The notes below the pieces were generated by a model, which was not told the origin of the DNA, ran no database searches, and saw nothing but the letters and a program-made list of their open reading frames with translations. A program made the position numbers and the translations under genes. Below, piece after piece: positions 12,266 to 64,000 of a stretch of DNA of 64,000 nt. Every line of letters begins with the position of its first letter. Within the stretch, counting starts at the first letter, position 1. The stretch spans positions 1,614,552 to 1,678,551 of the forward strand of contig NW_003101668.1 of the NCBI RefSeq assembly GCF_000003855.2, in the 5' to 3' direction. This DNA comes from Blastomyces gilchristii SLH14081. Taxonomy: Eukaryota > Ascomycota > Eurotiomycetes > Onygenales > Ajellomycetaceae.

Positions 12266-15200
12266 ATGGGCCTTCCAGAATCCGCTCCCATCTCAATTGA
12301 GAACATCGCGCACCCCACAGCCAGATCCTCTGACGTCGAAAAGTTCCCATCCGGCGAACTGCGCAAACGACCCTACACCGATTTTCTCGAACCGGTTTTC
12401 ACTGGCTCAAACGATGCCTCTTCAACCGACGAGGCCGGGTCCCTGAAACGCTCCGCCGACCAAACTCACCGCAAACTAAAGCCGCGACATATCCAGCTGA
12501 TTGGGATTGGAGGCACGATTGGGACGGCGCTCTACGTGCAGATTGGGAAGGGCTTGATGAATGGCGGCCCTGCGAGTTTGTTTCTTGCGTTCACGCTGTG
12601 GTAAGTCTGGGCTTTTGTTTTTTTTTTTTTTTTTTTTTTTTTTTCCCCTTCTGCCTTGCTGCTCTTTGGCGAGAGGTTGTTTTTTCTTTTTCCCTCTTTT
12701 TCCTTTGTTTCAAAAAAGGGTCTGCTTCTTGTGCATCAGATGGCTACTTGGAACAGGAGAGGGAAACAAACGAGGGAGGAAGCGCAAAAGGGTCGAGGTA
12801 AGTGTGGGAGATTGAGTATTGAAATCTATGATACTGAAGCTTCTCTCAGAAGAAGGAGAAAGTCAGGACATTGAAAAAAAAGAAGAAAAAAATGACAGTT
12901 AGGTAGAGGAGAAGGCTGCCTCTGTTGCATCACTGAGTATTAAAATATAGCAGATGTTCTCGTTCTTTAAACAGGGGACAAAAAAAAAAAAAGAAAAAAA
13001 AATCACTGAATGAAATTTCTCCTGCATTTCCATTTCACCCCCCTTCCTTTGCCCCTCTGGCTTTTGTTAACGATATCTTGCATATATGAATCTCATTTCC
13101 ATCTCTACAATAGGTCTTCCTTCATCCTAGCCGTCACCATATGTAAGATTCTTCCCGGAAGTCTTCTCTTTTTCAGCCCTTATGGCCCCGCGTCTCGCAA
13201 CCAAAAAGAAAACCCCGGAAAAAAACTGCAGATAAATATTCCACATCTGTTATCCTGCCCAAGCACGCCCTTTTTTCTTTACTTTACTTTCTTCCATGCA
13301 GCCATGTTGCCTCATATATCAGATCAGAACCTTGGAGAAAGCAAAATGATGCCCCAACAATGCGACATTTGTATCGCTGTCTACATCCCCTTTCCCAGGA
13401 CCACAGCTGAGAGGAGCGGACCTCCTCTCCCCCCCCCCCCCCTCCCCCTTTTTCCTCCACCTCCACATCCCCTATTACTATTTATTACATTTGGTCCATA
13501 TTTACTTCCATTCCACGTATTATCCCACAGAAAAGAAAAGATTGGTTTATAAAATTTAAGGAGGAAAACCGATTCTGTTTCCCTCCCCCCCCCCCTCTTT
13601 TTTTTGCGACTGGTTGGCTAAAAAACAAAACTAAAAAAAATAATACAGCTATGGCAGAGATGGTCACATATCTGCCTATATCGTCACCGTTTATCCGATT
13701 CGCCAGCCGCTATGTCGACGAGGCCTTCGGCGTGGCTACGGGATACAACTTCTTCGTCTTCGAGGCGGCCATGGTCCCCTTTGAGATTGTGGCTTGCAAT
13801 GTCATTATCCACTATTGGAGCGATGTTGTCCCTGTGGCGGGTATCATTACCATCGTGCTGGTGGCTTACGGGTAGGCCCACCATTTTTTTTTTTGGGTAG
13901 TAAAACTGGATACTAAGGATGATTCCGTTTGGGGAAAAAATAGTGTCATCAATTTCTTTGCAGTGCAGTGGTATGGCGAGTCTGAATTCTGGCTCGCGCT
14001 AGGTAAAGCGCTTCTCATCATTGGTCTCATCATCTTCACTTTCATCACCATGCTTGGTGGGAACCCGCTGGGCGATCGATATGGATTCCGCTACTGGCGC
14101 GAGCCCGGCGCCTTTGCTGAGTTGTATAAAACTGGAGATCTTGGCCGGTTCCTGGGATTCCTGCAATGTTTAATTCTGGTAAGCTGCTGCAGGATTCCCC
14201 TGTTTGTAAAAGTAGCATTGAATCTGTTGACTAATGACCCCACTAGGCTTCCTTCACAATTGCCGGACCAGATTACGTATCGATGGCTGCTGGAGAAACA
14301 GAAAATCCACGTTATGTCTTGCCCCGCGCGTTCAACGCCGTCTTCTACAGATTGACCGCCTTCTTCGTCCTGGGCAGCTTATGCGTGGGAATCGTTGTTC
14401 CCTACAACGATCCGACAATGTCAGACGCCTTCGGAAACGGCTTACCGGGCGCCGCTGCATCCCCCTATGTTGTCGCCATGGACAGGTTACAGATCAAAGT
14501 GCTCCCGCACATTGTCAACGCAATGGTGCTGGGCGCGGCATTCAGCGCAGGAAACTCTTACGTCTACTGCGCCAGCCGCAGCCTGTTCGGCCTCGCCCTT
14601 GAAGGAAAAGCACCCCGCATCTTCACCAAGTGCAACAAGCACGGCGTGCCGGGTCTACTGCGTCCTGCTTGTCCTGCTCATTGCACTGCTGTCCTTCCTC
14701 CAGGTTTCCAACGAAGCTGCCGTCGTGTTGGACTGGTTCGTCTCCCTCGTGACTGCTTCGCAGCTGCTCAATTTCTTCGCGGTAGCCTTTACGTTCACCC
14801 GGGTTCATGAAAGCGCTGGACGCGCAGGTGTCACTCGCGACTCGCTCCCATACAAGGGGCTCCTCCAGCCATATCTTGCATATTACGCTTGCGCGGGGAC
14901 GCTGACCATGGCCTTTGTGGGAGGGTATACGGTATTCTTACCTGGGACTGAGCATACCGACGTTTCTATTCTCGTACNNNNNNNNNNNNNNNNNNNNNNN
15001 NNNNNNNNNNNNNNNNNNNNNNNNNNNNNNNNNNNNNNNNNNNNNNNNNNNNNNNNNNNNNNNNNNNNNNNNNNNNNAAGAAGACAAAGTGGCTCAAACC
15101 TCATGAAGTCGACTTGTTCAAGGATGTCGCGGAAATTGATGAGTATACAAGAAACTTTGTTCCCACTCCGCCGAGGTAAAGTTTTTTGTTTCTTTTTGAT

Positions 15201-15348
15201 GCTGTTTCATATTCCCCTTCTAGATGAAGATGAGCTAGGGTTAGGGCTGAGAGTGGGAATTTGGCTTGAAAAATCTTGGAAGCTAACAAATGGCCCCCCT
15301 GAACACAGAAACTGGGTCGACAAATATTTCAACAAGCTCTTCGACTAG
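12266..15348 (+). CDS. Amino-acid permease (APC superfamily, fungal YAT type), six exons, frameshifted and gapped
   Basis: Model: join(12266..12600,13114..13142,13649..13871,13944..14178,14247..15175,15309..15348), with 100 Ns at 14978-15077. This is a plasma-membrane, proton-coupled amino-acid importer. A cytosolic N-terminus of about 70 residues is followed by the family motif RHIQLIGIGGTIGTALYVQ in TM1, then MAEMVTYLPI, a conserved block before TM3, GPDYVSMAAGETENPRYVLP, and SAGNSYVYCASRSLFGLA. The last exons read LKPHEVDLFKDVAEIDEY and RNWVDKYFNKLFD. Exon 2 has only 29 nt and is flanked by introns of 513 and 506 nt, far longer than the others (72, 68, 133). At 14651-14653 (GGG) one extra base shifts frame: before it reads KHGVP, after it VYCVLLVLLIALL, both matching the family. 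So either an assembly error near the gap or a real inactivating change. Confidence 0.85.
14978..15077. other. Assembly gap (100 N) inside the permease gene
   Basis: Exactly 100 Ns, the usual placeholder for a gap of unknown size. Permease sequence before and after is collinear with the family, so a loop/TM segment near the C-terminus is missing. The N count does not keep frame, which agrees with a placeholder length. Confidence 0.95.
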
Positions 15349-31879: not shown

Positions 31880-32920
31880 GTAAAATTACATCATTTCTCA
31901 TTCAAGCTACTACTGCTTTCTACCTCAAAAGTCTGAGATAAAGTCAAGAGTAGTGATCTATGAAAGAAAGAGATCAAGATATTAATTTAATCTAAGATTT
32001 AATATCATGTCTGACCCTGATATTCTGGTGAGTGATATTATAGATAAAGAAAATGAGTTTAATACTATACAGCTCATAAATATCTATAATGAAAAGTCAT
32101 TGAAGAAAAATAACAATATCTGAACAATTGATAGAGGATTTCTGAACATAACTTTATCAAGAAACTCTATAATTGCAGGAGATTTCAATGCATATCATCT
32201 CTGATGAAATTCAGAATGCAAGAGAGTAGTGAGAGCTGATAATCTAGTTAAATGAATCTTTGAGCATTCAATAGATTTGGTTAATAAGTCTGATCAATAA
32301 ACATTCTTTAGAAAAGACATGAAACAGAAATCTATTATAGATCTAATCTTCATGTCACAAAATCTAATGAAAAGAAGACTTGTAAACTGATTTATTAATT
32401 CAAATGAGACATCAGAATCAGATCATGAGATTATTCAATTTGATATTGAACTGAGTGAAAAATAAATGAGTGAAAATCCTCTTCTCTCTAATTAGTTTAG
32501 CTTTGAAAAAGCTGATTGAAAAGCAGTTGAAGAAAGTATAAAACTGTTAAAATCTGAAAGACAGAATGAGCTATATTGAAATTCTGGTCAAGATATCTCA
32601 AATGAAATGCTTGAGAATAGAGTGAAGCTTATTACATCTATTATTCTAACAAGTGTTAGAGATAATATTTCAAAGAGAAAATCTTCTGAGTATTCAAAAC
32701 CTTGATGAAATGAGAATATCTCATCTAAAAGAAAAGAATTAGCTACTGCTAGAAGAGATTGAAAGAATGATGTAATATCTGATGAAGAGTTCAAAGCTGT
32801 CAGAAATGAATATTTTTCAGATATTAAAAGAGCTAAAACAGACTGCTGGAATAAATTTCTTAAAGAAGCATAAGAGAAGGAAGTTTTTAAAGCTTTTAAC
32901 TATACTAAAACAAGAAGTAT
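31880..32920 (+). pseudogene. LINE ORF2 relic, N-terminal part (endonuclease), outer copy
   Basis: AP-endonuclease blocks are visible: SIIAGDFNAYHL near 32,170-32,205, followed by a TGA where the family has Trp, and SNETSESDHEIIQFDI near 32,400-32,450. The frame is cut at 32,920 by the inner LINE and resumes at 42,810. Confidence 0.82.
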
Positions 32921-32978
32921 TATTATTATTATTATTCTTCAATTATAGATGTATGCAGTCAGAGACTATGACATCTAC

Positions 32979-32999
32979 CTGAGAACTTTTAGTTCTCAG
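32979..32999 (-). other. Conserved 3' UTR hairpin of the inner LINE
   Basis: CTGAGAACT and AGTTCTCAG pair around a 3-nt loop, about 45 nt before the (AAT)n tail. The same hairpin is at the 3' end of the outer LINE and of the composite element. A likely recognition element for the LINE RT (inference from stringent-type LINEs). Confidence 0.65.
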
Positions 33000-33296
33000 G
33001 GTTTTTCCTATATCTGTAAAGTTAACTATTATACATTCATCAATTTCAGATATGCAAAATCAGAAAATTCCAGCTCAGAATACAAAAACTGTTTACAAAT
33101 TACAGTGTTTTAATATCTTCTGATACTTTGAAATCATTTGACAATATCATGACAAAGGAAAAGAGAAAAAGAACACAGTCTTAAAGATAGACACATTAAA
33201 TAGATAGATAGAAAGAAATTGAAAGAAAAAGATAAAGTAAAGAGAGACTGTAACAAAATAAATTATTAAAAAATAGTGTATAGCTGTTTTAACAGA

Positions 33297-36200
33297 CTAT
33301 ATCTGATTAATTTCCTTCTCTTCATATTCAGATAATTCTGAATTTAGCCATTTTCTTATAGCTGCTTGAGTTTCTGATAGACAGTCTATTAAGTATTTAA
33401 TTTCTGTCTCAGTTGAGAATAAGAATCTCATATTTAATTGATTTAGATTATACTTCTCTTTCAATCTGGCTCTGAGACTATTGTATAATACACAGTGTAT
33501 TACAATATACTCAGGATTCTCATTTGTATTGCAGAATAAGCATTCTATTGAGTCAAATCTATCATCAAATCTTTGTATATAAGATTTGAAATAGTCATGT
33601 TCTAGTTTCAGCTGTATTATAGATGAGAATATTTTCATTTTATATTTAATTAAACAAGATTTTCACTTGGGTTTTGTTTTAAATCTTGAATAATGTATAC
33701 TCTTCTTTTGTTTCTGCCAGCTTTCATTTCACTTGTCTAAATAAGATTCTTTCATTTTTCTCTTTATAAAAGATCAGGACATAATTTTTTGAATAGATCT
33801 GCTTAATTCTGCACTCTTTTTTACAGCTGAATCAGTCAATTCATTGTCATGAATATTCATATGAGCAGGAACTCATTGCAGATGAATTATCAGCTTTGAT
33901 GTTCTTCTCTTTTGAATTTTTAAAACAGAGTTTAAGATCAGTTCAAGATTCATTTAATTATTATGAATCTGACTATTTCTAAGTCTTTTTAAAGCAGCTT
34001 AACTATCAGAGAATATTCATGTCTCTTTTAAACAATTTCCTCTTTTATGAGATTTTATTTCTATGAGTTTGAAAGCTTTCACTACTGTAAATAGTTCAGT
34101 ATCAAAGACTTCAGATTCACAGTCTAAATTTCAGAAATCTGAGATAAAATTGATATTATCTTCAGTATAAGCAATGCCTGTGCCTAATCTATTCAAATTC
34201 TCATTTTTTGAGTTATCTAAATAAATCAGAATACAGTCTTTTATATTGATTGTAGAAATTCTCTTCAAATACTGTTTATATTCTTTCTCTTTTGATAGTT
34301 CACTTATTTGTAAGTCTATAAGAGATTCAAGCTTTTCTCTTCAGAGAGATAACTTCTCATGATCAACTTTTTCAATATTTAAAGAAGAAAATTGATTTTT
34401 AATCAGAGAGTATAGTCTGTACAGTTGAGAAGGCATTTTCTTTGAAGAATTATTTTCATTTCAATCAAGAAATCTATTTCAATTCAGTTCATTTTCAGAG
34501 TTAATTGATGAAAATGAAGAAGAGACTCTTTCTCTGATTATATGATTTGAGCTCATCTTTATAACTCTCAGAGCATAGTTCATACAGGTCTTTTCAAATC
34601 TAATAGTAGAAGAAGGAATTGAAGCTTCAATTTTCATTACTTTAATAGAAGATGATTTGAATGCTTTCAGAATTCTTCTCAAGACTCTGTTTTACAGACT
34701 TTGAAAGAGTTCAGTGAAATTTTCTTGATTATTTCATCAAACTTGAACTTCATAATCAGCTACTGATGTAATACAGACTATATATAACTGTCTCATAGCC
34801 TGGAAGAATAGATCTCTCTCTGTATTTGATAGTCTGATTATGTTGTTCAATAGTCTTTCTGCCTTGACAGTTCTTTGTTGAATGTGATATTTAAAATTCA
34901 ACTTGGAGTTTAATCATACTTCTAATCATTTGATATTTACACTGAGTTTAATCTCTCTATTTAAAAGAGTTAGAGATAGTTCTTTCTTATTGAATCTAGA
35001 AAAGAAATGAATTAACTCAGTTTTATTTATATTAAATTAAATTTGATTAATATCTGCTCTAATAAAGATTTTCTTTGCAGCTTCTTCAATCACTTTCAAA
35101 TTCTCTTTGATAGTTTTTGAGCTGTAGACTAGATTAATATCATTCATATACTCAGAGATCATACTATTCTCATATTTCTATTTTGAATAGATATGCAGTG
35201 TATATTGGCAGATAAGATAGATAAGATTGAAGATTCTTATGATACTTCTATTTTTATCTCAGTCTTGTCTTATTTTATTTCATCAAAGAAAAGTTATATA
35301 ATTCTTTTAGATATAAAACAGTTATTTTATTTTATTAGAGAAAGTGACAGTTTTAACATCTTCAATATCTGAATTAACTTTGACTTTGAAACATAATCAA
35401 ATACTTCTTTTATATCAATAAAAACTGCAGTTGAGATCAGATCTTCATGCTTTGCTATTTAAATATCATGAACAACTGAGAGAACAGTGTCAATTGTAGA
35501 ACACTGTTTTCTATCTCTCATTTATTCACTGAATAAAAGAAAATTACTGACAGAGCTTATAAAAGATAGTTGAGTAGCTATTATCTTTTCTAAAACCTTT
35601 TCTAGACAGTTCAATAGAGATATTACTCTATATGACTTAAAAATTGAAGTTTTTCTATTAGATTTTATAAGAATCACTTCAGTGGCTTCTCTCCAGCATT
35701 CAGAATGATATTCATTTTTTAAGAGATTGAAAAAGAGCTCAAAATATTCATTCTTTAAGTAGAAGTATGTATTTTGATTAATTAAGTGATTAATTGAATC
35801 AGGCCCTGCAGCAGTCTTAACTGAACTTGAGAAGATAGCTGACTCTAATTCATCTTGAGTAAGATCAGGTCATTCTCAGTCATTTTCATTAATATAGTTA
35901 AGAAGTGATATATTCTCTTTCTCTGAATCTGAATCTGATGAGTTTTGAAAGAGAGTTCTTATAAAAGCTTGACATTTTTTCTTAAAAGAGTTTGCTGTAT
36001 ATGATTCATTCTGAAACTCATATTCTAAGATTGAAAGTTTTGCTATACTTCTTGTTTTAATATAGTTAAAAGCTTTAAAAACTTTCTTTTCTTATGCTTC
36101 TTTAAGAAATTTATTTCAGCAGTCTGTTTTAGCTTTTTTAATATCTGAAAAATATTCATTTCTGACAGCTTTGAACTCTTTATCAGAAATTATATCATTC

Positions 36201-37040
36201 TTTCAATCTCTTCTAGCAGTAGTCAATTGTTTTCTTTTAGATGTGATATTCTCATTTTATCAAGGTTTTGAATACTCAGAAGACTTTCTCTTTGAAATAT
36301 TATCTTTAACACTTACTAGAATAATAGATGTAATGAGCTTCACTCTATTCTCAAGCATTTCATTTAAGATATCTTGACCAGGATTTCAATATAGCTCACT
36401 CTGTCTTTCAGATTTTAACAGTTTTATGCTTTCTTCAACTGTCTTTCAGTCAGCTTTTTCAAAGTTAAACTGATTAGAGAGAAGAGGATTTTCACTCATT
36501 TATTCCTCACTCAGTTCAATATCAAATTGAATAATCTCATGATCTGATTCTGATGTCTCATTTGAATTAATAAATCAGTTTATAAGTCTTTTTTTCATTA
36601 GATTTTATAACATGAAGATTAGATCTATAATAGATTTCTGTTTCATGCCTTTTCTAAAGAATGTGTATTGATCAGACTTATTAACTAAATCTATTGAATA
36701 CTCAAAGGTTCATTCAATCAGATTATCAGCTCTTACTGCTCTTTTACATTCTGAATTTCATCAGAGATAATGTGCATTGAAATCTTCTACAATTATAGAG
36801 TTTCTTGATGAAGTTATGTTCAGAAATTCTCTATTAATTGTTCAGATGTTATTATTTTTCTTCAATGACTTTTCATTATAGATATTTATAAGCTGTATAG
36901 TATCAAACTCATTCTCTTTATCTATAATATCACTCACCAGAATATCAGGGTCAGACATGATATTAAATCTTAGATTAAATTGATATCTTGATCTCTTTCT
37001 TTCATAGATCACTACTCTTGACTTTATCTCAGACTTTTGA
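33297..37040 (-). pseudogene. LINE ORF2 relic, inner copy (endonuclease-RT-RNase H-CCHC)
   Basis: Read right to left: endonuclease (about 37,000-36,480; NSIIVEDFNAHYL, ETSESDHEIIQF), RT (about 35,850-35,080; WREATEVILIKSNRKTSI, SYRVISLLNCLEKVLEKII), RNase H (about 34,240-33,830; FSDSQAALKRLRNSQ and a VPAHMNIHDNE block), and a Cys-rich C-terminus (CLFCNTNENPEYIVIHC, about 33,530-33,480) ending NQI-stop at 33,297. Numerous in-frame stops. Confidence 0.85.
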
Positions 37041-37399
37041 GATAGAAAGCAGTAGTAGCTTGAATAAGAAATGACATATTTTTACTCAGGATCAAAATTC
37101 AGCTCCTGAAGCAGTATAAAATCAACTTTTTATTTAAATGCAATTTGAAGATAAGAATAAATACAATTTGAGTTTCTATTCACATTATTTTAAATAAATG
37201 TGATTTTTGAAGAGTTTTTAAACTTTTTTTGTTGTTTTTGTTGTATATTTATACTAAAAGAGAGTAGAGTAGAATCTAATCACTATCATTAGATAGTAGA
37301 TTATAACTATTCTGAAAAGTAGAAATCTCAACTGCTTACATTATATCTAGTTTATCATCAGAGTCATTTCTCAATTCTCTAATCTTAACAGAAGTTTGA

Positions 37400-38886
37400 G
37401 AATTCAAATTCTGTTTACATTTAGCTGGAGAATTGAAGTTTGAAGATTTAGATAGTTGAGAGTTTCTTCTTTTTAAGCTTGCAGTTGTGAGTTTACTGAC
37501 TTGACTATTCTCTTCAGTTCTAGATTTACTTTAAGCTTCATCTTTTCTTCAGTTCTTTTGAGTTCTTGAAGCAAACATACATTCTTTTGAGCTAGATGCA
37601 TGTTTTTCTTTGCAATTAGAGCATTTAAGCAGAGTATATTAACATATTTCATCTCTTTTTAAGCATGTTTCACATTTATGCTCACTAGTTTTGTGATCTC
37701 TGACACAGAATACATATTTTGAGTCTCTGAAACAGAAGATTGTAAAGTATTCATATCTTTGACAGTTTGAACACTGTGTTTGAGCTTTGAGATTCATTCT
37801 TAAGTCTTTGTATTCATGAACTCTCATTTTCAAACCTGCTACTCTTACTTCAGAGATCTTTGACTGTTCAAGTGTTTTTGTATATACTAGAACAGAGGCA
37901 TTTCTTCTGCTTTATCTGAACTCAATTGAATTTAGTTATACAGGCTCTTTTCTCAGTTGAATAGAGTTGTATTCTTCTAATTCATTTTTGAGAAGTAGCA
38001 TTTCTTCTTCACAGTCAAAAATTTCAACTGAAATATCATGAAGAATGAATTTGTCTCATTTTTCATCTCTCTCAGATAGAATTATTATGTTTAATAAAGA
38101 TTCTATTACTGATTTTCAGAGATTCTCATTCTGAATAAGGAATTCTGTACTGAATTCAGACATTGTAGTCAGAATAATGAAGTTTTCAAAGAAGAATGAC
38201 TCAATTGAAGTCATAACTGATTTTTGAACTTCAATATCAGTCATTAACTGAGAAAAGAACTGCTGATTAATTTCATTTCTGATTCTGAAAATGAGATTTG
38301 AGTTTAGCTTGTTCCTTTACAAGATGTTCTGATTTGAGACTTTGAGAATAAGTCTTCTATTTCTGAAGATTTGAAAGTTTTTCTTCTTTTGCATTTTTTT
38401 CTTCACTTTTCTATCAATAGAAGTATGAGCATTATTCTTCTCAGTTTTTTCAGGATTTTAAGCATGTTTTGAGATAGCAGGTTTAGAGACAGCAGATTCA
38501 GCTGCTTGAGCATATGTTTTCTTCTGATTTAAAGAAGAAGAAGAAGTAGAAAAAGAGAAAGAAGAGTAAGATAAGAAGTCAGTGATTGTACTAGGAATTT
38601 TCAATGTTTTTTGAACTGTGTTTGAAATTCCAAGTTTGAACTTGATCATCTTCTGTAGTTGTCTAGTCTGAGTATGAAGAATTAGCAGAACCTCTTCATT
38701 TATCTCACTCAGACACTGCTTTTCAAGAATCTTGCTTACTTTTTCAAGTTTCTGTATTTCAAGAACTTGTTGTTTCTCTATTTCTTCTTTCTTTCTTCTC
38801 TTCAGAATTTCAATCTCAGGAATAGCATTTGACAAAGCATCTTTTTCCACATCAACTGAGTGTATTTTTGAACTCATTGTTCTCAC
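37400..38886 (-). pseudogene. LINE ORF1 relic, inner copy
   Basis: The longest surviving frame (38,886-38,458) encodes MSSKIHSVDVEKDALSNAI, a charged coiled-coil-like helix and a Ser-rich stretch ending in Ala-rich sequence. Further on, at 37,833-37,639, is a zinc-knuckle-like CSNCQRYEYFTIFC and RDHKTSEHKCETC, as in Tad1/I-group ORF1 nucleic-acid-binding proteins. Confidence 0.8.
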
Positions 38887-39472
38887 TCAATGAAAAGTTA
38901 GTCAGACTGTTTCAATTGAGATATGTATTGAACTCTTTTGAAAAGTTGATCAGACTGTTTTAATTCAGAGGTTTCTAAGTCTGTTTTCAATTGAAAAGTT
39001 GGTTAGACTGTTTCAAAAGAAGAATAAAAGACTTTTATGTATAAAACACCTGATTTTTTTCACACTAGTTCAGTAACTAGGTTAGATTTTTGAAGAGAAT
39101 CTAATAAACTAAAATTGATTTTTGAGATAAATCAATAAAATCTTTACAATCTCTTTCTTGAGATACAGTGAGGAAAAGTATGATATCAATTGATAATAAA
39201 TCAGATAATATGACAGTTTTTGAGAGAAAAACTGATAAAAAATAAATCAATTTTTTGCAGAGAAATTGATTAAAACTATTCAATTTTATTCTAAATCATT
39301 CAATTATTCTCACACAACAAGTGTGCAACTCAAATCAGTTAATAAAGAGTGTAAAAAAGAATTAAGTATTAATGAAAGCTCTTCAGCTACTGAAAAAGTA
39401 ATTCTTACTTAAAATAATATGAAATTATGACAGAAAACAGCTCTGTTTTTAATTCTTTGTAAGAATATTGTA

Positions 39473-40588
39473 TAAAACTCAGAGAAAAACATCTTACTTT
39501 TTTAAGAGAAGTAAAAATCTATTTCTAAGATCTTTTTTTTTTTTTTTCATTAACTGCTGCAGAAGAATGAGATAGAAACTACTAAGATATACACTACTGT
39601 ATACTCTCTATCAAGACTTTCTCTCTTCAGAGTCTTGATATTATAGAGAATATAAGTCTGTTTCTATATAATAATATAAATATTGTCAGTGAGATGTAGA
39701 GAAACTGGTTATTTATATCTTAAAATAGAAGACTTTATCAATGATTATATCAATATAGAGTTAATTCTCAAATTCAATAGAAATCTAGTATTGCTGTTCT
39801 CAATCCCTTGCAGAATCTATTGAATATTGAGGTATTAAAACTAGATTTAATATATCTCACTGTGCAGGGATTAAAGGCTCAGTCAGATCTTGAAGTATAC
39901 TGAATTTATAGTTGTTGATATGCTGTTGACTTGTTCTGTTGACTTGTTATCTGCTGATTATGTATCAAATACTGTTACTGAGGTATCTTTTTGTATTGTT
40001 CTGCCGGGGATGGGCCAGATTGAGAGGGGTAGTACAAGAGTGAGACTTGGTGTTGATGTTCAGATACACTGAAGACAGATCACAGAGATTGCACTTCAGA
40101 AGTATCTGTTGATTATATGCTTGATATTATCACTGAGGTATCTTTTTGTATTTTTCTGCCGAGGATGGGCCAGATTGGGAAGGGCGGTACGAGGGTGGGA
40201 CTTGGTGTTGGTGTTTTGGAACATCAAAGATGGACAGGGTTTTCGCGGAGGTCACTCCTCAGATATCTTCACAACTACAGATTGGGGATCTTCCAAAATT
40301 GAGAAGATTGATGCATATGGCTAGGTCTCTTCACCTTACAATTTGTATGGCAATTTGGCCCGGGGTTGTGATGTGGTAGGAAAGAATGAGGGATAATCCC
40401 ACACAGGAGTTTTGAATGACATCTGGTTCATGTTTGGCTGGATAACTCCATCACCACACAGGGTATGCAGTCGGTGATGGGGTCAAAATGCTCATATGAT
40501 CAAGGGCTTTTCAATGAATCTATCAGCGGGTTCTTATTTGAAAAATTGAGTGAGTTTGTGATGAAGTGATTGATGAAATTCTCTTGAA
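39473..40588 (-). repeat. LINE 5' monomer, copy a (proximal to ORF1)
   Basis: First of three head-to-tail units, about 1,116 bp. It contains a T run (A run on the element's strand), a repeated pair of GGGCCAGATTG boxes and a GC-richer core near 40,200-40,540. This is the most mutated of the three outside its core. Confidence 0.85.
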
Positions 40589-41690
40589 GAATATTGTGTA
40601 AAATTCAGAGAAAAACATCTTACTTTTTCAAGAGAAGTAAAAAACTATTTCTAAAATCTTTTTTTTTTTTTTTTTTTTGCATTAACTGCTGCAGAAGAAT
40701 GAGATAGAAACTGCTAAGATATACACTACTATATACTCTCTATCAAGACTTTCTCTCTTCAGAGTTATGATATTATAGAGAATATAAGTCTGTTTCTATA
40801 TAATAATGTAAATATTATCAGCAGAATGTAGAGAAACTGATTATTTATATCTTAAAATAGAAGACTTTGTCAATGATTATATTAATATAGAGTTAATTCT
40901 TAAATTCAATAGAAATCTAGTATTGCTATTCTCAATCTCTTACAGAATCTATTGAATATTGAGATATTAAAACTAGATTTAATATATCTCACTATGCAGG
41001 GATCAAAGGCTCAGTCAGACCTTGAGATATACTGATTTTATAGTTATCATGTCTGCTGATTATGTATTGAGTACAGTTGCTGAGGTATCTTTTTGTACTT
41101 TTCTGTCAGAGATGGGCCAGATTGAGAGAGGTGGTATGAGGGTGAGACTTGATGTTGATGTCTAGATACACTGAAGACAGACCACAGAGATTGCACTTCA
41201 GAAGTGACTGTTGATTATGTGCTTAATATTATCACTGAGGTATCTTTTTGTATTTTTCTGCTGAGAATGGGCCAGATTGAGAAGAGCGGTATGAGGGTGA
41301 GACTTGGCATTGATGTTTTGAAACATCAAAGATGGACAGGGTTTTCGCAGAGGTTGCTCCTCAGATATCTTCACAACTACAGATCAGGGATCTTTCAAAA
41401 TCAAGAAGATTGGTGCATATGGCTAGGTCTCTTCACCTTACAATTTGTATGGCAATTTGGCCCGGGGTTGTGGTGTGATAGGGGAGAATGAGGGATAATC
41501 CCACACAGGAGTTTCAAATGACATCTGGTTCATGTTTGGCTGAATAACTCCACCACCACACGGGGTATGCGGTCGGCGATGGGGTCAAAATGCTTGTATG
41601 ATTGAGGGCTTTTTGATGGATCTATCAGCGGGTTCTTATTTGAAAAATTGAGTGAGTTTGTGATGAAGTGATTGATGAAATTCTCTTGAA
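40589..41690 (-). repeat. LINE 5' monomer, copy b (middle)
   Basis: 1,102 bp, with the same internal order as copy a. It carries CpG and CpC losses relative to copy c (for example GCCGAGG is ACTGAGG here). Confidence 0.88.
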
Positions 41691-42778
41691 GAATATTGTG
41701 TAAAATTCAGAGAAAAACATCTTACTTTTTCAAGAGAAGTAAAAAACTATTTCTAAAATCTTTTTTTTTTTTTTTTTTTTTTTGCATTAACTGCTGCAGA
41801 AGAATGAGATAGAAACTGCTAAGATATACACTACTGTATACTCTCTATCAAGACTTTCTCTCTTCAGAGTTATAATATTATAGAGAATATAAGTCTGTTT
41901 CTATATAATAATGTAAATATTATCAGCAGAATGTAGAGAAACTGATTATTTATATCTCAAAATAGAAGACTTTGTCAATGATTATATTAATATAGAGTTA
42001 ATTCTTAAATTCAATAGAAATCTAGTATTACTATTCTCAATCTCTTACAGAATCTATTGAATATTGAGATATTAAAACTAGATTTAATATATCTTACTAT
42101 GCAGGGATCAAAGGCTCAGTCAGACCTTGAGATATACTGATTTTATAGTTGTCATGTCTGCTGATTATGTATCAAGTACAGTTGCTGAGGTATCTTTTTG
42201 TACTTTTCTGTCGGGGATGAGCCAGATTGAGAGGGGTGGTACAAGGGTGAGACTTGGTGTTGATGTCTAGATACACTGAAGACAGACCGCGGAGGTTGCA
42301 CTTCAGAAGTGGCTGTTGGTTATGTGCTTGATATTATCGCCGAGGTATCTTTTTGTATTTTTCTGCTGGGGATGGGCCAGATTGGGAAGGGCGGTACGAG
42401 GGTGGGACTTGGCGTTGGTGTTTTGGAACATCAAAGATGGACAGGGTTTTCGCGGAGGTCGCTCCTCAGATATCTCCACAACTACAGATCGGGGATCTTC
42501 CAAAATCGAGAAGATTGGTGCATATGGCTAGGTCTCTTCACCTTACAATTTGTATGGCAATTTGGCCCGGGGTTGTGGTGTGGTAGGGGAGAATGGGGGA
42601 TAATCCCACACAGGAGTTTCGAACGACGTCTGGTTCATGTTTGGCTGGATAACTCCACCACCACACGGGGTATGCAGTCGGCGATGTGGTCAAAATGCTC
42701 ATATGATCGAGGGCTTTTCGATGGATCTATCGGCGGGTTCTTATTCGAAAAATCGAGCGAGTTCGTGGTGAAGCGGTT
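41691..42778 (-). repeat. LINE 5' monomer, copy c (5'-most, least mutated)
   Basis: 1,088 bp, ending in the element's 5' start AACCGCTTCACC on the minus strand. Its last ~500 bp keep many CpG and GG sites lost in copies a and b. The same stretch is found at 22,557-22,895 in the outer LINE. Confidence 0.88.
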
Positions 42779-42809
42779 GTTTTTCAGATGATCGTAAAAC
42801 AAGAAGTAT

Positions 42810-45558
42810 AGCAAAACTTTCAATCTTAGAATATGAGTTTCAGAATGAATCATATACAGCAAACTCTTTTAAGAAAAAATGTCAAGCTTTTATAAGAACT
42901 CTCTTTCAAAACTCATCAGATTCAGATTCAGAGAAAGAGAATATATCACTTCTTAACTATATTGATGAAAATGACTGAGAATGATCTGATCTTACTCAAG
43001 ATGAATTAGAGTCAGCTATCTTCTCAAGTTCAGTTAAGACTGCTGCAGGGCCTGATTCAATTAATCACTTAATTAATCAAAATACATACTCCTACTTAAA
43101 GAATGAATATTTTGAGCTCTTTTTCAATCTCTTGAAAAATGAATATCATTCTGAATGCTGGAGAGAAGCCACTGAAGTGATTCTTATAAAATCTAATAGA
43201 AAAACTTCAATTTTTAAGTCATATAGAGTAATATCTCTATTGAACTGTCTAGAAAAGGTTTTAGAAAAGATAATAGCTACTCAACTATCTTTTATAAGCT
43301 CTGTCAGTAATTTTCTTTTATTCAGTGAATAAATGAGAGATAGAAAACAGTGTTCTACAATTGACACTGTTCTCTCAGTTGTTCATGATATTTAAATAGC
43401 AAAGCATGAAGATCTGATCTCAACTGCAGTTTTTATTGATATAAAAGAAGTATTTGATTATGTTTCAAAGTCAAAGTTAATTCAGATATTGAAGATGTTA
43501 AAACTGTCACTTTCTCTAATAAAATAAAATAACTGTTTTATATCTAAAAGAATTATATAACTTTTCTTTGATGAAATAAAATAAGACAAGACTGAGATAA
43601 AAATAGAAGTATCATAAGAATCTTCAATCTTATCTATTTTATTTGCAATATACACTGCATATCTATTCAAAAATAGAAATATGAGAATAGTATGATCTCT
43701 GAGTTATATGAATGATATTAATCTAGTCTACAGCTCAAAAACTATCAAAGAGAATTTGAAAGTGATTGAAGAAGCTGCAAAGAAAATCTTTATTAGAGCA
43801 GATATTAATCAAATTTAATTTAATATAAATAAAACTGAGTTAATTCATTTCTTTTCTAGATTCAATAAGAAAGAACTATCTCTAACTCTTTTAAATAGAG
43901 AGATTAAACTCAGTGTAAATATCAAATGATTAGAAGTATGGTTAAACTTCAAGTTGAATTTTAAATATCACATTCAACAAAGAACTGTCAAGGCAGAAAG
44001 ACTATTGAACAACATAATCAGACTATCAAATACAGAGAGAGATCTATTCTTCCAGGCTATGAGACAGTTATATATAGTCTGTATTACATCAGTAGCTGAT
44101 TATGAAGTTCAAGTTTGATGAAATAATCAAGGAAATTTCACTGAACTCTTTCAAAGTCTGTAAAACAGAGTCTTGAGAAGAATTCTAGAAGCATTCAAAT
44201 CATCTTCTATTAAAGCAATGAAAATTGAAGCTTCAATTTCTCCTTCTGCTATTAGATTTGAAAAGGCCTGTATGAACTATGCACTGAGAGTTATAAAGAT
44301 GAGCTTAAATTATATAATCAGAGAAAGAGTCTCTTCTTCATTTTCATCAATTAACTCTGGAAATGAACTGAATTGAAATAGATTTCTTGATTGAAATGAA
44401 AATAATTCTTTAAAGAAAATGTCTTCTCAACTTTACAGACTATGCTCTCTGATTAAAAATCAATTTTCTTCTTTAAATGTTGAAAAAGTGAATCATGAGA
44501 AGTTATCTCTCTGGAGAGAAAAGCTTGAATCTCTTATAGACTTATAAATAAGTGAACTATCAAAAGAGAAAGAATATGAACAGCATTTGAAGAGAATTTC
44601 TACAATCAATATAAAAGACTCTATTCTGATTTATTCAGATGACTTAAAAAATGAGAATCTGAATAGATTAGATGCAGGCATTGCTTATACTGAAGATAAT
44701 ATCAATTTTATCTCAGATTTCTGAAATCTAGGCTGTGAATCTGAAGTCTTTGATGCTGAACTATTTGCAATAGTGAAAGCTTTCAAACTCATAGAAATAA
44801 AATCTCATAAAAGAGAAAATAGTTTGAAAGAGATATGAATATTCTCTGATAGTCAAGCTGCTTTAAAAAGACTTAGAAATAGTCAGATTCATAATGATCA
44901 AATGAATCTTGAACTGATCTTAAACTCTGTTTTAAAAATTCAAAAGAGAAGAATATCAAAGCTGATAATTCATCTGCAATAAGTTCCTGCTCATATGAAT
45001 ATTCATGACAATGAATTGACTGATTCAGCTGTAAAAAAGAGTGCAGAATTAAGCAGATCTATTCATAAAATTATGTTCTGGTTTTTTATAAAGAGAAAAA
45101 TAAAAGAATCTTGTTTAGACAAGTGAAATGCAAGCTGGTAGAAACAAAAGAAGAGTATACATTATTCAAGATTTGAAATAAAACCCAAGTGAAAATCTTG
45201 TTCAATTAAATGTAAAAAGAAAATATTCTCATCTATAATACAGCTGAAACTAGAACATGACTATTTCAAATCTTATATACAAAGATTTGATGATAGATTT
45301 GACTCAATAGAATGCTCATTCTGCAATGTAAATGAGAATTCTGAGTATATTATAATGCACTGTGCATTATACAATAGTCTCAGAGTCAGATTGAAAGAGA
45401 AGTATAATCTAAATCAATTAAATATGAGATTCTTATTCTCAACTGAGACAGAAATTAAATACTTAATAGACTTTTTATCAGAAACTCAAGCAGCTATAAG
45501 AAAATGGCTAAATTCAGAATTATCTGAATATGAAGAGGAGGAAATTAATCAGATATAG
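42810..45558 (+). pseudogene. LINE ORF2 relic, C-terminal part (RT-RNase H-CCHC), outer copy
   Basis: Continues the frame broken at 32,920. RT motifs are at about 43,030-43,870 (WREATEVILIKSNRKTSI; VFIDIKEVFDYVSK; YMNDINLVYSS in place of the YxDD box). RNase H is at about 44,630-45,050 (DAELFAIVKAF, FSDSQAALKRL). The CCHC end (CSFCNVNENSEYIIMHC) is near 45,315-45,365, with stop NQI-stop at 45,558. Confidence 0.85.
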
Positions 45559-45855
45559 TCTGTTAAAACAGCTATACACTATTTTTTAATAATTTGTTTT
45601 GTTACAGTCTCTCTTTACTTTATCTTTTTCTTTCAATTTCTTTCTATCTATCTATTTAATGTGTCTATCTTTAAGACTGTGTTCTTTTTCTCTTTTCCTT
45701 TGTCATGATATTGTCAAATGATTTCAAAGTATCAGAAGATATTAAAACACTGTAATTTGTAAACAGTTTTTGTATTCTGAGCTGGAATTTTCTGATTTTG
45801 CATATCTGAAATTGATGAATGTATAATAGTTAACTTTACAGATATAGGAAAAACT

Positions 45856-45876
45856 CTGAGAACTAAAAGTTCTCAG
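45856..45876 (+). other. Conserved 3' UTR hairpin of the outer LINE
   Basis: CTGAGAACT-AAA-AGTTCTCAG, a 9-bp perfect stem about 40-60 nt before the (AAT)n tail. Same position and sequence as in the inner LINE and the composite element. Confidence 0.65.
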
Positions 45877-48316
45877 GTAGATGTCATAGTCTCTGACTGC
45901 ATACATCTATAATTGAAGAATAATAATAATAATAAGATGATGAAAAAATAATGATTACAGTTTCAGACAAAACATCTGATACTATTTAATATCTTGAGTC
46001 AGTAGAACTTCCGAGAGATTATTTAATACAGTTGTTCATGACCTGAATAACTGATTATACACAAATCATGCATCTCTTGCATTATTCAAGTGTATAAGAA
46101 TTCAGAGTGAGAGATTTAACATTGTTCATGAAACTGTAGAGTATTATTATCATTAATTGAGCATTCTGAGATGTCAGTTCTTATACATAGTTCTGAGAGA
46201 AATCAGAGTGCTTCTTGACATACTGCTTCAGTGAGTGCTTGAAGAAGTTCATCAGTTTAAGCTGTTATATATTATAATTCATTCAGTGTAGATTCAGAAG
46301 AAGTTGAGATATCAGTATCAGTGTCAGTTCAGAAAGAGAATGTTCTAATCAGAGAAGTGTATATAGTGTCATAAGCTGTTTCATCTTGATTAACTAATAT
46401 CTTCAGATTTAAGAGTCAGTGCTCTCAGTTCATTCAGTGAGTATCTGTTACATCAGATGATATATCTTACTCTTGTTATAAAAGAGCATCTATCATTGAG
46501 TTCTGACTGCTGAGATGATAGTGTATTATAAAATGAAAGCAGCTTAAGAACTCAGATTATCATATCTATCATTCAGTGAGTTTACAGATAGTTATAAAGT
46601 ACTTGAGATTCTTATAATCTGTGATTCTCTCAAATTCAGAGACACTTTAGAGTTCAGAGTTCTATTCTTCTAGACAGTGTATAATTGTAAGAAGTTTCTT
46701 ATTATAGATCTCATAGTTGCATTCAGTGTAGACTGACCGTGTGACCGTGTCTGAGACCAGAATCAAACTTTACAGTTGTTATATTGTCTAAAAGCATTAC
46801 TTCTGATCATGATTTGTGTTCATCACATTGATTTCAAATCATATTATTTCAAATATTAAAGGTTCTAGATTCACTTTTCAAATAAAAATCTAGTTCTGAA
46901 TAAAGAATATATTTGAATTCTTAGTCACATTTTCATTCTGATCTCATTATTGAGAATGACATTAAATGAGATTATAAAATCACTTCTCACTTACATAATA
47001 TCATAACATAGTACTCATTTGTTGAAAATTCAACAGAGAGTGTTATCAAATATTATTACTTTTCTAAACACAGATCATAATTCATATAATTTTAATTATG
47101 AAAAAAATATAAAATACAAAAACAAAAAACAAAAAACAAAAAACAAAACAAAAACAAGAAAAAATCAGAATGAAAAAAAAAAAAGAGAAAGAAAAAAAAA
47201 ATAAAAACAAAAGAAATCAAGATTGCAGAGCTATAGTATCTTCAAAATACTTACTTCTCAGAGTCTTTGCAATGTTTATCACTAACTATGTATTTCTTAC
47301 AGTGAGAATAACACAGCTGTGATAAGTCATTGTCTTAACATTATCTAATAAATAATCAGTATATATCTGTATAAATGTGAATATTTAGAAAATATACACT
47401 TAAAAAGTGTGATCAGAGTGAACTCTGCTGTCACTTGTATAATATTAAGAGTAGAACACTGAAATCAATGATTTCTCTCATTGATTTCATGAATAAGATA
47501 TATGAAGATGATCTTGAGAAATATAAGATTCTCTGACTTCTGATAAAAATGAATCTCATGAAGAGACTCTATTTTCATGATATCAGAGACTGAGTGTTAT
47601 TAAAAAGTGTTACTTTTATACAATGCATATGCACTTACTGTGACAATTCATTCTCTGTGCATGTGACTGAGAGTTGCAGCTTTCTTACATCACATAGCTC
47701 TCTCTGAAATGCTGGCACTGGTTTACAACTCACACAGTCTCTCAGTTCAGTACATGCTGTGTGTATACAGTTCTGCATACTAGAGCTGTGTTAGTCATTA
47801 TAATCTGATGTGATACTCACTTTTCACAGGCCATGTTTTGTTTGAGAGAGAGAGAGAAAGACACAACTGTGATTTAATTAAGAGAGAATAAATAATTAGT
47901 AATGTTAAATGTAATTTAATTCTTCTATATTTAAAATTTGATTAGTCTATACTCTTCAATTTGAGAGTTTCTAAGAGTGTTTTAATAGTTTTCATATCAG
48001 CTTGAACTTAGTGATGAATTGAAGAAGAAGAGAAAAGAGAGAAGAAAGAAATAAGAATAACTTATCTTTATAATATAAAAATAGAGAATTACTGCAATCA
48101 TTCTTTCTAGTAATAAAGATCTATTTTCTGCATGTATCTCTGATATAGATTATATAATAACTGTATATAAAGAATATCAATACTGCATGCGTTGAATGAA
48201 GATGATGTTACTATGCAACACTATAGCTGTTTTCATATATCTCTGAAAGCTGTTAATATTTTCTTTGTCTCTTTATATTTGATAAGTCAGTAATATATTT
48301 CAATGCACTCTCTCTT

Positions 48317-60600: not shown

Positions 60601-61414
60601 AAACTGGTTTAAACAGTCTGCGGGATGAATAGAATCATCCGCAAGAAAGTGATGAGCCGTGTGAAACCGTAATAAGGTCTTAACGCGGCTGAGAGCGTGA
60701 TAAGTAAATAAAGAGTGATTGTAAATTACAGATTTAAATCTTTTTATATAACTATAAAGAGTAATTGTAGACTGTAGATATCTTAATTCTACAATTCTAC
60801 AGAGTTAATAAAACAATGAAAAATTTCTCACAATTTTACAGTGTTAAAAAATGATGATTTATAAGAATAAGTAAAAGATTAACTTATAAATACTTTTCTT
60901 TGATAAGAGTGATCTTATAGAAAGTAATTTATCTGCAGAATAAATCTATGTAATAATCACACAAGAATCTTGTGAAAAAATGATTGAAGATTAACTGAAA
61001 TTCTTCAGATTAAGATATGAAATGAATCTGTGTAATAATTATATAAGAATCTTATGAAAATAATTGAGAGTTAATCAGAACTCTTCTATATAAAAGATAT
61101 AAGATAAATCTATATAATAGTCAGAGAAAGATCTGCAGATTATAAAGAATCTTATAAAATAAGAAACTAAGTAACAGACTCTTTTCTCTTTATAGTAATA
61201 AGGGATTTTTTTCCTCACTGAGGTTTTTTTTTTATAGATACAAAGAGTTTTTAGTGAGTATTACTACAGTGCTGAGTCTGATTTTATAAAAGCACTTAGT
61301 GAAAGACTTCACAGATGAAGTCTTAGAGAGAGAAAAGTATATAAGAAATTCTGCTTCTCACAGATTCTTTATCTCTATTTCTATCTCTTGTATAATTAAT
61401 AGAGTTAGCAGCTC
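60601..61414. repeat. LTR-like tract with a GC-richer patch
   Basis: About 60,610-60,705 keeps several CpGs (CTGCGGGATG, AAACCGTAA, AACGCGGC) in an AT-rich setting. Downstream is a TATATAA-type sequence near 61,338 followed by CT-rich DNA. It may be an LTR of Gypsy-B or of a separate element; orientation is not settled. It is interrupted at 61,428 by the composite element and resumes at 63,676. Confidence 0.45.
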
Positions 61415-61428
61415 TTGACTACACACAT

Positions 61429-61509
61429 GCCAGCGTGGCCCAGTTGATAAGACTGGTAACCAAGGCCGCATACATTAGAGGTGTGTGGGTTCGAATCCCA
61501 CCGCTGGCA
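61429..61509 (+). ncRNA. tRNA-like head with pol III A and B boxes (probably not a working tRNA)
   Basis: The acceptor arms pair perfectly (GCCAGCG with CGCTGGC, discriminator A). The T arm is perfect (GTGGG-TTCGAAT-CCCAC) and includes the B box GGTTCGAATCC. The A box TGGCCCAGTTGATAAG fits the consensus. The middle does not fold into a normal D arm plus anticodon arm: GGTAACC would leave a loop that is too small, and the total is 81 nt. So no anticodon can be assigned. Its location at the 5' end of a retroelement points to a SINE-type promoter. Confidence 0.75.
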
Positions 61510-62178
61510 CCTGCCACTTCTTACCCATGAAAGCCCCCATGTAATAGAGGCTGAGCCTAATTAGTAAGGCTTGGTGCGGGGTAGAACTCTCTACTGCAAG
61601 CCAAGCCACTAGTTAAGTGAGATCCTGCAAACACCCATCAGGGCTGGTATGAGATGTCAATGTCTCACTATCCTACTGTGCACCCGTCAAGGTTCTAATG
61701 ATATAGAGCCAAGCCTAATGTAGTGGTTATACACTACTTAAGCGAGTCCCTAACTAGGGCTGTCATTGAAGCCTAGCTCCCCCTCAAATACAGGGAATGA
61801 TTTTGAAAACCACCTGACTAGCAGGCCTAGATGCGTATCTAGGCCCTAGGCAGGGCACCCTGATAGGCTAGAGCCTGCAAGCTCCCTGCCAAGCCCTAAT
61901 ACTGGGAGAGAGAACTGCAGTCATCAAGCCTATGATTAGTCCCTAACACAGGGTGAGGCCACGATGGCTGATTGATAGGCCTATGAGCATCTAATGAGGC
62001 CGAGATCAGCAACCGGAAGCTTGGTGTGTACACCACCAAGTGAGCAGTGGCAGTCACTAACTAACACCCCTGGAAATTAGTGACTGGCCTGAGAGAACAG
62101 ACGCGGTGATTGATTAATTATAGAGGGTTAAATGTAATTAGCTTAAGATGCATCCTGTGGGTGGCTAGTGCCTGTAGT
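61510..62178 (+). other. Unmutated body of the composite element, unknown origin
   Basis: About 670 bp of near-balanced composition in an AT-rich setting, with CC and GG common and no long open frame. It contains recurring words (GAGCCTA, AGCCTA, CCCTAA, TAGGCCTA) suggestive of an RNA gene or SINE body. A TTTT at 61801-61804 could end pol III transcription. I do not recognise it. No second copy is in the window. Confidence 0.6.
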
Positions 62179-63276
62179 CAATTTTCTTCTTTAAATATTG
62201 AAAAAGTTACTCATGAGAAGTTATCTCTCTGAAGAGAAAAGCTTGAATCTCTTATAGACTTATAAATAAGTGAACTATTAAAAGAGAAAGAATATAAACA
62301 GCATTTGAAGAGAATTTCTACAATTAATATAAAAGACTCTATTCTGATTTATTCAGATGACTCAAAAAATGAGAACTTGAATAGATTAGATGCAGGCATT
62401 GCTTATACTGAAGATAATATTAATTTTATCTCAGATTTCTGAAATCTAGACTCTGAATGTGAAGTCTTTGATACTGAACTATTTATAATAGTGAAAGCTT
62501 TCAAACTCATTGAAATAAAATCTTATAAAAGAGGAAATTATTTGAAAGAGATATAAATATTCTCTGATAGTCAAGCTACTTTAAAAAGACTTAGAAATAG
62601 TCAGATTTATAATAATCAAATGAATCTTGAACTGATCTTAAACTCTGTTTTGAAAATTCAAAAGAGAAGAATATCAAAGCTGATAATTCATCTACACTGA
62701 GTTCCTACTTAAATGAATATTCATGATAATGAATTGACTGATTCAGCTGTAAAAAAGAGTGCAGAATTAAGCAGATCTATTCAAAAAATTATGTCCTGAT
62801 CTTTTATAAAGAGAAAAATAAAAGAATCTTGTTTAGACAAGTGAAATGAAAGCTGGCAGAAATAAAAGAAGAGTATACATTATTCAAGATTTAAAATAAA
62901 ACTCAAGTGAAAATCTTGTTTAATTAAATGTAAAAAGAAAATATTCTCATCTATAATACAGCTGAAACTAGAATATGACTATTTCAAATCTTATATACAA
63001 AGATTTAATGATAGATTTGACTCAATAGAATGCTTATTCTGTAATACAAATAAGAATTCTGAGTATATTGTAATACACTGTGCATTATACAATAGTCTCA
63101 GAGTCAGATTGAAAGAGAAGTATAATCTAAATCAATTAAATATAAGATTCTTATTCTTAACTGAGACAGGAATTAAATACTTAATAGACTTTCTATCAGA
63201 AACTCAAGCAGCTATAAGAAAATGACTAAATTCAGAATTATCTGAATATGAAGAGAAGAAAATCAATCAGATATAG
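62179..63276 (+). pseudogene. LINE ORF2 C-terminal relic in the composite element
   Basis: RNase H and CCHC region equivalent to 44,461-45,558 of the outer LINE, ending at the same NQI-stop. More TGG-to-TGA changes than in the outer copy. No start codon of its own is expected to be used. Confidence 0.8.
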
Positions 63277-63585
63277 TCTGTTAAAACAGCTATACACTCT
63301 CTTTTAATAATTTGTTTTGTTATAGTCTCTCTTTACTTTATCTTTTTCTTTATCTTTTTCTTTCAATTTCTTTCTATCTATCTATTTTAATGTGTTTATC
63401 TTTGAGACTGTGTTCTTTTTCTCTTTTCTTTTATCATGATATTGTCAAATAGTTTCAAAGTATCAAAAGATGTTAAAACACTGCAATTTGTAAACAGTTT
63501 TTGTATTCTGAGCTGGAATTTTTTGATTTTGTATATCTGAAATTGATGAATGTATAATAGTTAACTTTACAGATATAGGAAAAAC

Positions 63586-63607
63586 CCTGAGAACTAAAGT
63601 TCTCAGG
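63586..63607 (+). other. Conserved 3' UTR hairpin of the composite element
   Basis: CCTGAGAACT and AGTTCTCAGG form a 10-bp stem with a 2-nt loop in a copy that is otherwise mutated. Third instance of the LINE 3' hairpin. Confidence 0.65.
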
Positions 63608-63675
63608 TAGATGTCATAGTCTCTGACTGCATACATCTATAATTGAAGAATAATAATAATAATTGACTACACACA

Positions 63676-64000
63676 ACTATATAGACTGAAGTTTATAAAT
63701 ACTATTTATAATTCAGCTTAAATACTATTATATATTTAATCTCTATAGTTTATCTTTCTACTGTGAATACTTCTAGTAGATAATAGTATATATTATACTA
63801 AGTTATAACATCTGAATAATTATCTGCAAGTACTTATTCTTACAAGTTATTAAAAAAACATACAAAGTAACTATATATCAAATCTCAAAATGAAATTATA
63901 ACTTGAAAAAATAAGAAAGTAATTTTATTTAATTTCATTTAATTTTATTCTTGATAATAAAGTTACTATTATTAGACATTTTAAAGTTTTTTTTAAACTA
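63676..64000. other. AT-rich tail of the window
   Basis: Continuation of the tract interrupted by the composite element. Very AT-rich; no coding motif or clear element boundary seen. Confidence 0.5.

Follow-up and report, generated by a model that had tools for sequence, protein, structure and literature searches.

What is the insertion at positions 61415-63675 of the window, that is, the 64,000-nt stretch of the Blastomyces gilchristii SLH14081 genome analysed here: a one-off chimera, a member of a mobile family, or a composite that propagates as one unit? The initial annotation had read it as a single insertion framed by an exact 13-bp target duplication. This is borne out by the recurrence of TTGACTACACACA at both ends, with the copy at 61415..61427 repeated exactly at 63663..63675; the two target site duplications (TSDs) enclose three parts, all on the forward strand: a head resembling a tRNA, then a body, and finally ~1.48 kb from the 3' end of a Tad1-like LINE. 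The head (61429..61509) matches the Rfam tRNA model with 32.1 bits against a gathering score of 29, Rfam yielding beyond tRNA only matches under the gathering score. ARAGORN run by default reported no tRNA gene, and its relaxed threshold gave just a weak tRNA-Trp-like call in five of the five heads tried, so that this part resembles a tRNA without being a functional tRNA gene. It starts with the G at 61429, the T at 61428 being an extra or RNA-derived base, and contains the polymerase III A box TGGCCCAGTTG (61436..61446) and B box GGTTCGAATCC (61488..61498), both identical in letters in the window and in another copy, L048. The tRNA-like head with polymerase III boxes described at first is therefore upheld.

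The non-coding body (61510..62177) is GC-richer up to the GTAG at 62177, a 3' end that is constant among the copies read, and the insertion itself lies in an AT-rich part of the window. Downstream of the body, a 5'-truncated LINE 3' part (62178..63662) runs to an (AAT)n end, as annotated, but the RNase H and CCHC regions said to be carried along are relics in this copy, because its LINE half is mutated and has many stops. The junction formerly placed at 62,178/62,179 does recur in other copies, although it is ambiguous by one base: the T at 62178 fits either side, the body thus ending at 62177 or 62178, and by analogy with other copies this T is probably LINE-coded. A paralogous empty site was found at L150 (252-672), where the flanking repeat is uninterrupted and 86-88% identical to window positions 61170-61427 and 63662-63844. 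This AT-rich repeat is the host of the window insertion, and a related repeat holds one further copy, L016, a few bases off the position used in the window. Elsewhere in the window, a Nop4-like ORF (6347-8581) shows 100% identity with a protein of Blastomyces dermatitidis ER-3, and an ORF in a GC-rich block (14395-15348) contains a run of unknown residues.

A family of chimeric copies

Pattern searches of the 74.8-Mb, 75-contig genome at up to three mismatches returned 153 heads and 155 body ends, with five matches to the reversed body-end pattern and none to the head control. We examined 121 copies (the window, 20 loci read at length, 80 further junctions and 20 further heads), and in 120 of them the body continues into the LINE in sense; in L150 the body itself is interrupted by a different repeat, and L036 enters the LINE for only 23 bp before another repeat follows. 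Counted on a reference LINE copy in the window (3' end at 32920..34394, reverse strand), the LINE parts are between 313 and 7,662 nt long; the place of the longest is uncertain because it falls in the tandem-repeat region of this reference. TSDs flank all 21 copies read to both ends, 20 of them exact over 11-17 bp and that of L019 15 bp long with one mismatch, as compared with a mean of 5.8 bp, a maximum of 14 and 7 of 398 at ≥10 bp in the control with mismatched flanks. The head is reached, or nearly so, in 58 of the 61 bodies read. L017, L063 and L076 are short at the 5' side, which in the latter two may stem from later disruption; these two were left out of the body comparisons below, and L150 of the second body set. 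A search for genome copies had been advised as a way to tell a mobile family from a one-off chimera, and with ~150 copies, of which the 21 read to both ends bear their own TSDs, the outcome is a mobile one: the window element is a member of a large chimeric retroelement family.

These observations also bear on two further explanations. An assembly artefact, which the use of a single assembly and a run of N at locus L023 might suggest, has a negligible probability given that TSDs, flanks and LINE lengths differ among the 21 loci and that a paralogous empty site exists. Since head and body always lie 5' of the LINE and in line with it, they could also represent the native 5' end of the LINE, with the copies arising as internal deletions of it. 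Yet LINE copies lacking head and body, such as the reference copy, continue upstream past the mapped junctions into ~1.1-kb tandem repeats, so the body is not the 5' end of the LINE and we hold this reading for extremely improbable. Within the window, LINE copies with such repeats at their 5' side occupy 32900-45960, the repeats being perhaps promoter monomers.

Fusion sites and their repeated use

The 99 placed junctions, which fall at 72 distinct LINE sites sharing a short motif, make this genome an extensive natural archive of LINE-mediated RNA joining (L062 and L072, with an indel near the joint, were dropped from the site counts). In 92 of the 99 the base after GTAG is the LINE base, which makes the final G of this motif the simplest 3' end for the acceptor RNA. 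Among the distinct sites, A occupies position -3 in 65 of 72 and position -1 in 51 (background 0.39 for both), T position +1 in 55 (background 0.32), and C or T position +2 in 61 (background 0.47). The whole A-N-A|T-Y motif fits 33 of the 72 and is present at 167 of 7,677 LINE positions, as measured on one mutated LINE copy; fusion sites thus follow this LINE motif. Trans-splicing was disfavoured because a single site out of the 72 has G at -1. An attack of ribozyme type by the 3' end of the body, comparable to intron reverse splicing, was discarded by reasoning, no longer pairing stretch being conserved at the sites.

The window's joint is common to ~11 copies within one base (nine places at ≤2 mismatches, plus L010 and L017), as would be expected if the composite moved as one unit with its LINE tail, that is, as the self-propagating family that the initial annotation would have recognised in many copies with the same junction. 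Three transversion markers define four stepwise haplotypes in 78 bodies, namely ACG (31), AAG (25), AAC (13) and TAC (9), and a genome pattern search for these markers listed 83 places with no other combination among them. Eight of the copies read at the window's site join at the exact nucleotide and two, L010 and L017, one base off. Within them, a 12-bp LINE indel gap is present in L010 and L012 and absent from L013 and L015 (all AAC), present in L016 and absent from L009 (AAG), and present in L017 and absent from L011, L014 and the window (ACG). The coexistence of three haplotypes and two LINE subfamilies at one joint indicates that shared joints are repeated independent fusions. Even without L010 and L017, five combinations of haplotype and LINE subfamily are found at the window's exact junction nucleotide, which by these markers has been used in at least five independent fusions. 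Site 1135 likewise gathers three haplotypes in eight bodies. Across the family, pairs sharing a LINE site had equal haplotypes in 34 of 110 cases versus 32.1 expected (p 0.35; sites one base apart merged in pair and haplotype tests where so stated), i.e., they are no closer than shuffled pairs, and no fixed marker of the window-joint group was found in the bodies compared. Copies with the same joint are hence not of common descent, which renders the movement of the composite as one unit very unlikely.

Sampling has to be considered when site usage is judged. The window's site is over-represented in the first set because L009-L017 were drawn with a query containing its LINE start; L029-L108 were chosen by body end alone. 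In this latter set, 14 repeats were scored among 78 placed joints, against 15.5 expected from sampling 167 motif places, an expectation that counts all these places yet only 32 of the 64 distinct L029-L108 sites fit the whole motif. The window's site (~11 copies) and site 1135 (nine copies) look over-used beyond what sampling predicts.

Probable joining of two RNAs and possible source of the acceptor

We consider it probable that the window carries one insertion of a chimeric retroelement family in which a second RNA is joined during target-primed reverse transcription of a LINE. The LINE protein would nick the target and start copying LINE RNA from its 3' end; at an A-N-A|U-Y site the enzyme would leave the LINE template, or meet a cut end, and resume copying from the 3' end of a second, separate RNA, structured and ~750 nt long, which would comprise the tRNA-like head, the body, a terminal hairpin and a GUAG end. 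Copying of this RNA to its 5' end, followed by repair, would then yield the TSD. This reading, which develops the template switching favoured in the initial annotation, is supported by the constant 5' part with its constant acceptor 3' end at the joint, the variable LINE point, the LINE 3' end in (AAT)n and the TSDs of the 21 copies, junctions being variable in the wider sample too. Bodies lacking 5' sequence (L017, together with L063 and L076 provided that these were not disrupted afterwards) are also consistent with it, since copying would begin at the body 3' end.

The main rival is RNA ligation before copying, by which LINE RNA would be cut at A-N-A|U-Y, its 3' fragment attached by ligation to the tRNA-headed RNA at the 3' end of the latter, and the chimera copied in one pass. 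Such a route, named as an alternative path for U6/LINE-1 in the accessible part of one report (PMC13174262), would account for plain head-to-tail joints without extra bases (92/99) and for a motif as sharp across the joint (A at -3 in 65/72) as expected of a cut site, but the different joint motif given for Magnaporthe (PMC2104539) favours, if weakly, a LINE-specific cause over a shared host enzyme. We rate ligation as unlikely, and infer that joining occurs by a template jump. Site recurrences here are shown to be independent by the crossing of two marker sets, body haplotype and LINE subfamily, and a large record of joints with a motif and independent reuse makes the choice between jump and ligation testable with defined RNAs. 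The family points to an RNA that spreads by exploiting the copying machinery of another element.

The putative acceptor, ~750 nt long with the ends deduced from the copies, may be a polymerase III transcript started at its own head, as the A and B boxes would allow. A TTTT at 61801..61804, the sole T run of four or more in head and body, had been held against a single polymerase III transcript; it is the only T4 run in the body (L048) and is little informative about polymerase III. When a 751-nt stretch of L026 was folded, it reached -316.4 kcal/mol (z -4.46, with only 20 shuffles) and displayed a 9-bp hairpin at its end. This terminal hairpin, which maps to 62155..62177, is predicted in four of the six copies folded (L026, L048, L047 and L025, but not L029 or the window), with pair probabilities of 0.95-0.97 in L048, and the GTAG body end is its predicted base. 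The lowest-energy folds of two copies, L026 and L025, show a cloverleaf-like head, whereas those of L048, L047 and L029 do not.

A search for the body as an independent SINE, also advised at the outset, revealed no LINE-free copy among the 121 examined, nor any free copy with its own fixed 3' end as in a tRNA-derived SINE. Specifically, no LINE-less source gene was found among all 80 body ends with 0-1 mismatch, eight of the 20 listed with two mismatches, or 20 good heads without a listed body end. L036 (C2:3347046-3347795) was tried as such a source, as it has a GC-rich 5' flank, TTTT directly after GTAG and no LINE in the next 1.2 kb. It was counted as a chimera cut by a later insertion because its flanks (L170 and L171) are repeats, another repeat begins exactly at the end of the LINE match (23 bp, E 1e-5), and its body has C>T at a marker. 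L036 lies within a short GC-rich repeat; of the 120 chimeras it is the weakest case.

Where, then, does the acceptor come from? We give about even chances to one-way copying, in which all heads and bodies derive from a single host RNA gene, absent from the assembly or among the unread copies. A gene of this kind was proposed for WEIRD in Magnaporthe, likewise without a solo copy, in the text available (PMC2104539), and a diverged LINE-less source is possible since reading covered 88 of the 100 listed body ends and ~55 of the 155 were counted but not listed. Against it, no LINE-less copy emerged when the complete set of 80 body ends with 0-1 mismatch was read, and four stepwise haplotypes require several sources or a changing one. 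Somewhat less probable, and put forward tentatively, is an obligate template-jump parasite with no LINE-recognised tail and no separate source gene, the inserted chimeras being themselves the source genes. Each would be transcribed from its tRNA head, the read-through RNA would be trimmed to the base of the terminal hairpin, and the LINE enzyme would land on this clean 3' end, thereby providing every new copy with a new LINE tail. Besides the lack of LINE-less copies, the arguments for such a parasite are the stepwise haplotypes, the body end at a hairpin base and the near identity of the youngest copies L047, L048 and L052, ~0.5% apart at three different joints. If true, it would be a SINE spreading only as a second template, and an RNA mobile without any tail recognised by the LINE.

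The bodies also record mutation. Changes in 51 pooled bodies are nearly all C>T and G>A, with rates of 0.34 at CG, 0.29 at CC, 0.07 at CA and 0.01 at CT, and of 0.006 at A and T, the share of C/G changed per body ranging from 1% to 40%. This RIP-like C>T thus prefers CpG and CpC, unlike the CpA preference stated for fungal RIP-like mutation in the portion consulted of a published account (PMC12543289). Body damage showed a rank correlation of -0.09 with LINE GC (p 0.51; 59 copies), and LINE halves are AT-rich already in the youngest copies. C/G positions of the body are changed at 4% in L018 and at 3% in L022; their best LINE frame has 46 and 31 stops, respectively, and more than 4 kb of LINE contains 0 and 1 CpG. 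Most simply, the LINE RNAs were damaged before being copied, although the LINE half may instead have been selectively mutated after insertion. Stop-filled LINE halves in the youngest chimeras suggest that transcripts of defunct LINE copies continued to be used as templates. Of 907 PF14529 candidates, the 150 best included no live LINE of the partner family. One LINE on C18, L169 (C18:991400-993400), was rejected as the live partner: it belongs to a second family, with no nucleotide match and 24% protein identity, has a GC of 0.45 and an open endonuclease domain, and contains stops elsewhere in the 2 kb read.

Relation to known chimeras and SINEs

The family belongs to the MINE type of chimera known from Magnaporthe, with two RNAs joined in the course of LINE retrotransposition, most likely by a template jump; the comparison with MINE made in the initial annotation is therefore supported by the same plan. 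As described in the sections available, the 31 MINEs are WEIRD-MGL chimeras in which a full-length non-coding RNA of 1.1 kb lies in sense on variable LINE 3' parts, with TSDs of 10-20 bp and no solo WEIRD copy, and their joints use preferred sites with the motif GCC|A/U, some of them repeatedly (PMC2104539). The Blastomyces elements share the constant full-length RNA at the 5' side, the variable in-sense LINE part, TSDs of ~10-20 bp, the lack of a solo RNA copy, preferred joint sites with a short motif and site reuse (PMC2104539).

Other systems match in part. Like fungal tRNA SINEs such as AfuSINE2, the Blastomyces element has a tRNA-like head with A and B boxes, an unrelated body and TSDs (PMC5063351). 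However, fungal SINEs measure 140-493 bp and have their own 3' end, that of AfuSINE2-1a of Aspergillus fumigatus resembling a LINE 3' UTR, according to the excerpts available (PMC5063351), whereas in Blastomyces the body comes without its own LINE tail, and the LINE part varies from copy to copy, up to several kb. As in U6/LINE-1 and Alu/LINE-1 chimeras, a mostly full-length small RNA lies 5' of a 5'-truncated LINE, mostly in sense and with TSDs; 452 mammalian Alu/LINE-1 chimeras are reported in the part of the source consulted (PMC13174262). Unlike Alu, a free SINE for which chimeras are exceptional (PMC13174262), no free copy occurs among the 121 examined. A search of the literature outside subscription papers found no description of a tRNA-headed family in Blastomyces, and two Blastomyces genome papers, in the text available, mention Tad1 or non-LTR elements only in passing.

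With respect to MINE itself, compared by description, the Blastomyces element has a tRNA-like head, no tRNA being mentioned in the accessible text on WEIRD, and reaches about 150 copies in the genome instead of 31 (PMC2104539). Its joints lie at A-N-A|T-Y rather than GCC|A/U (PMC2104539); the latter motif characterises the Magnaporthe LINE and not the MINE type as such. In addition, the independence of shared sites was tested here with haplotypes. Together, the tRNA head, the copy number, a different site motif, proven site reuse and degraded LINE halves in the youngest copies are what this family adds to MINE.
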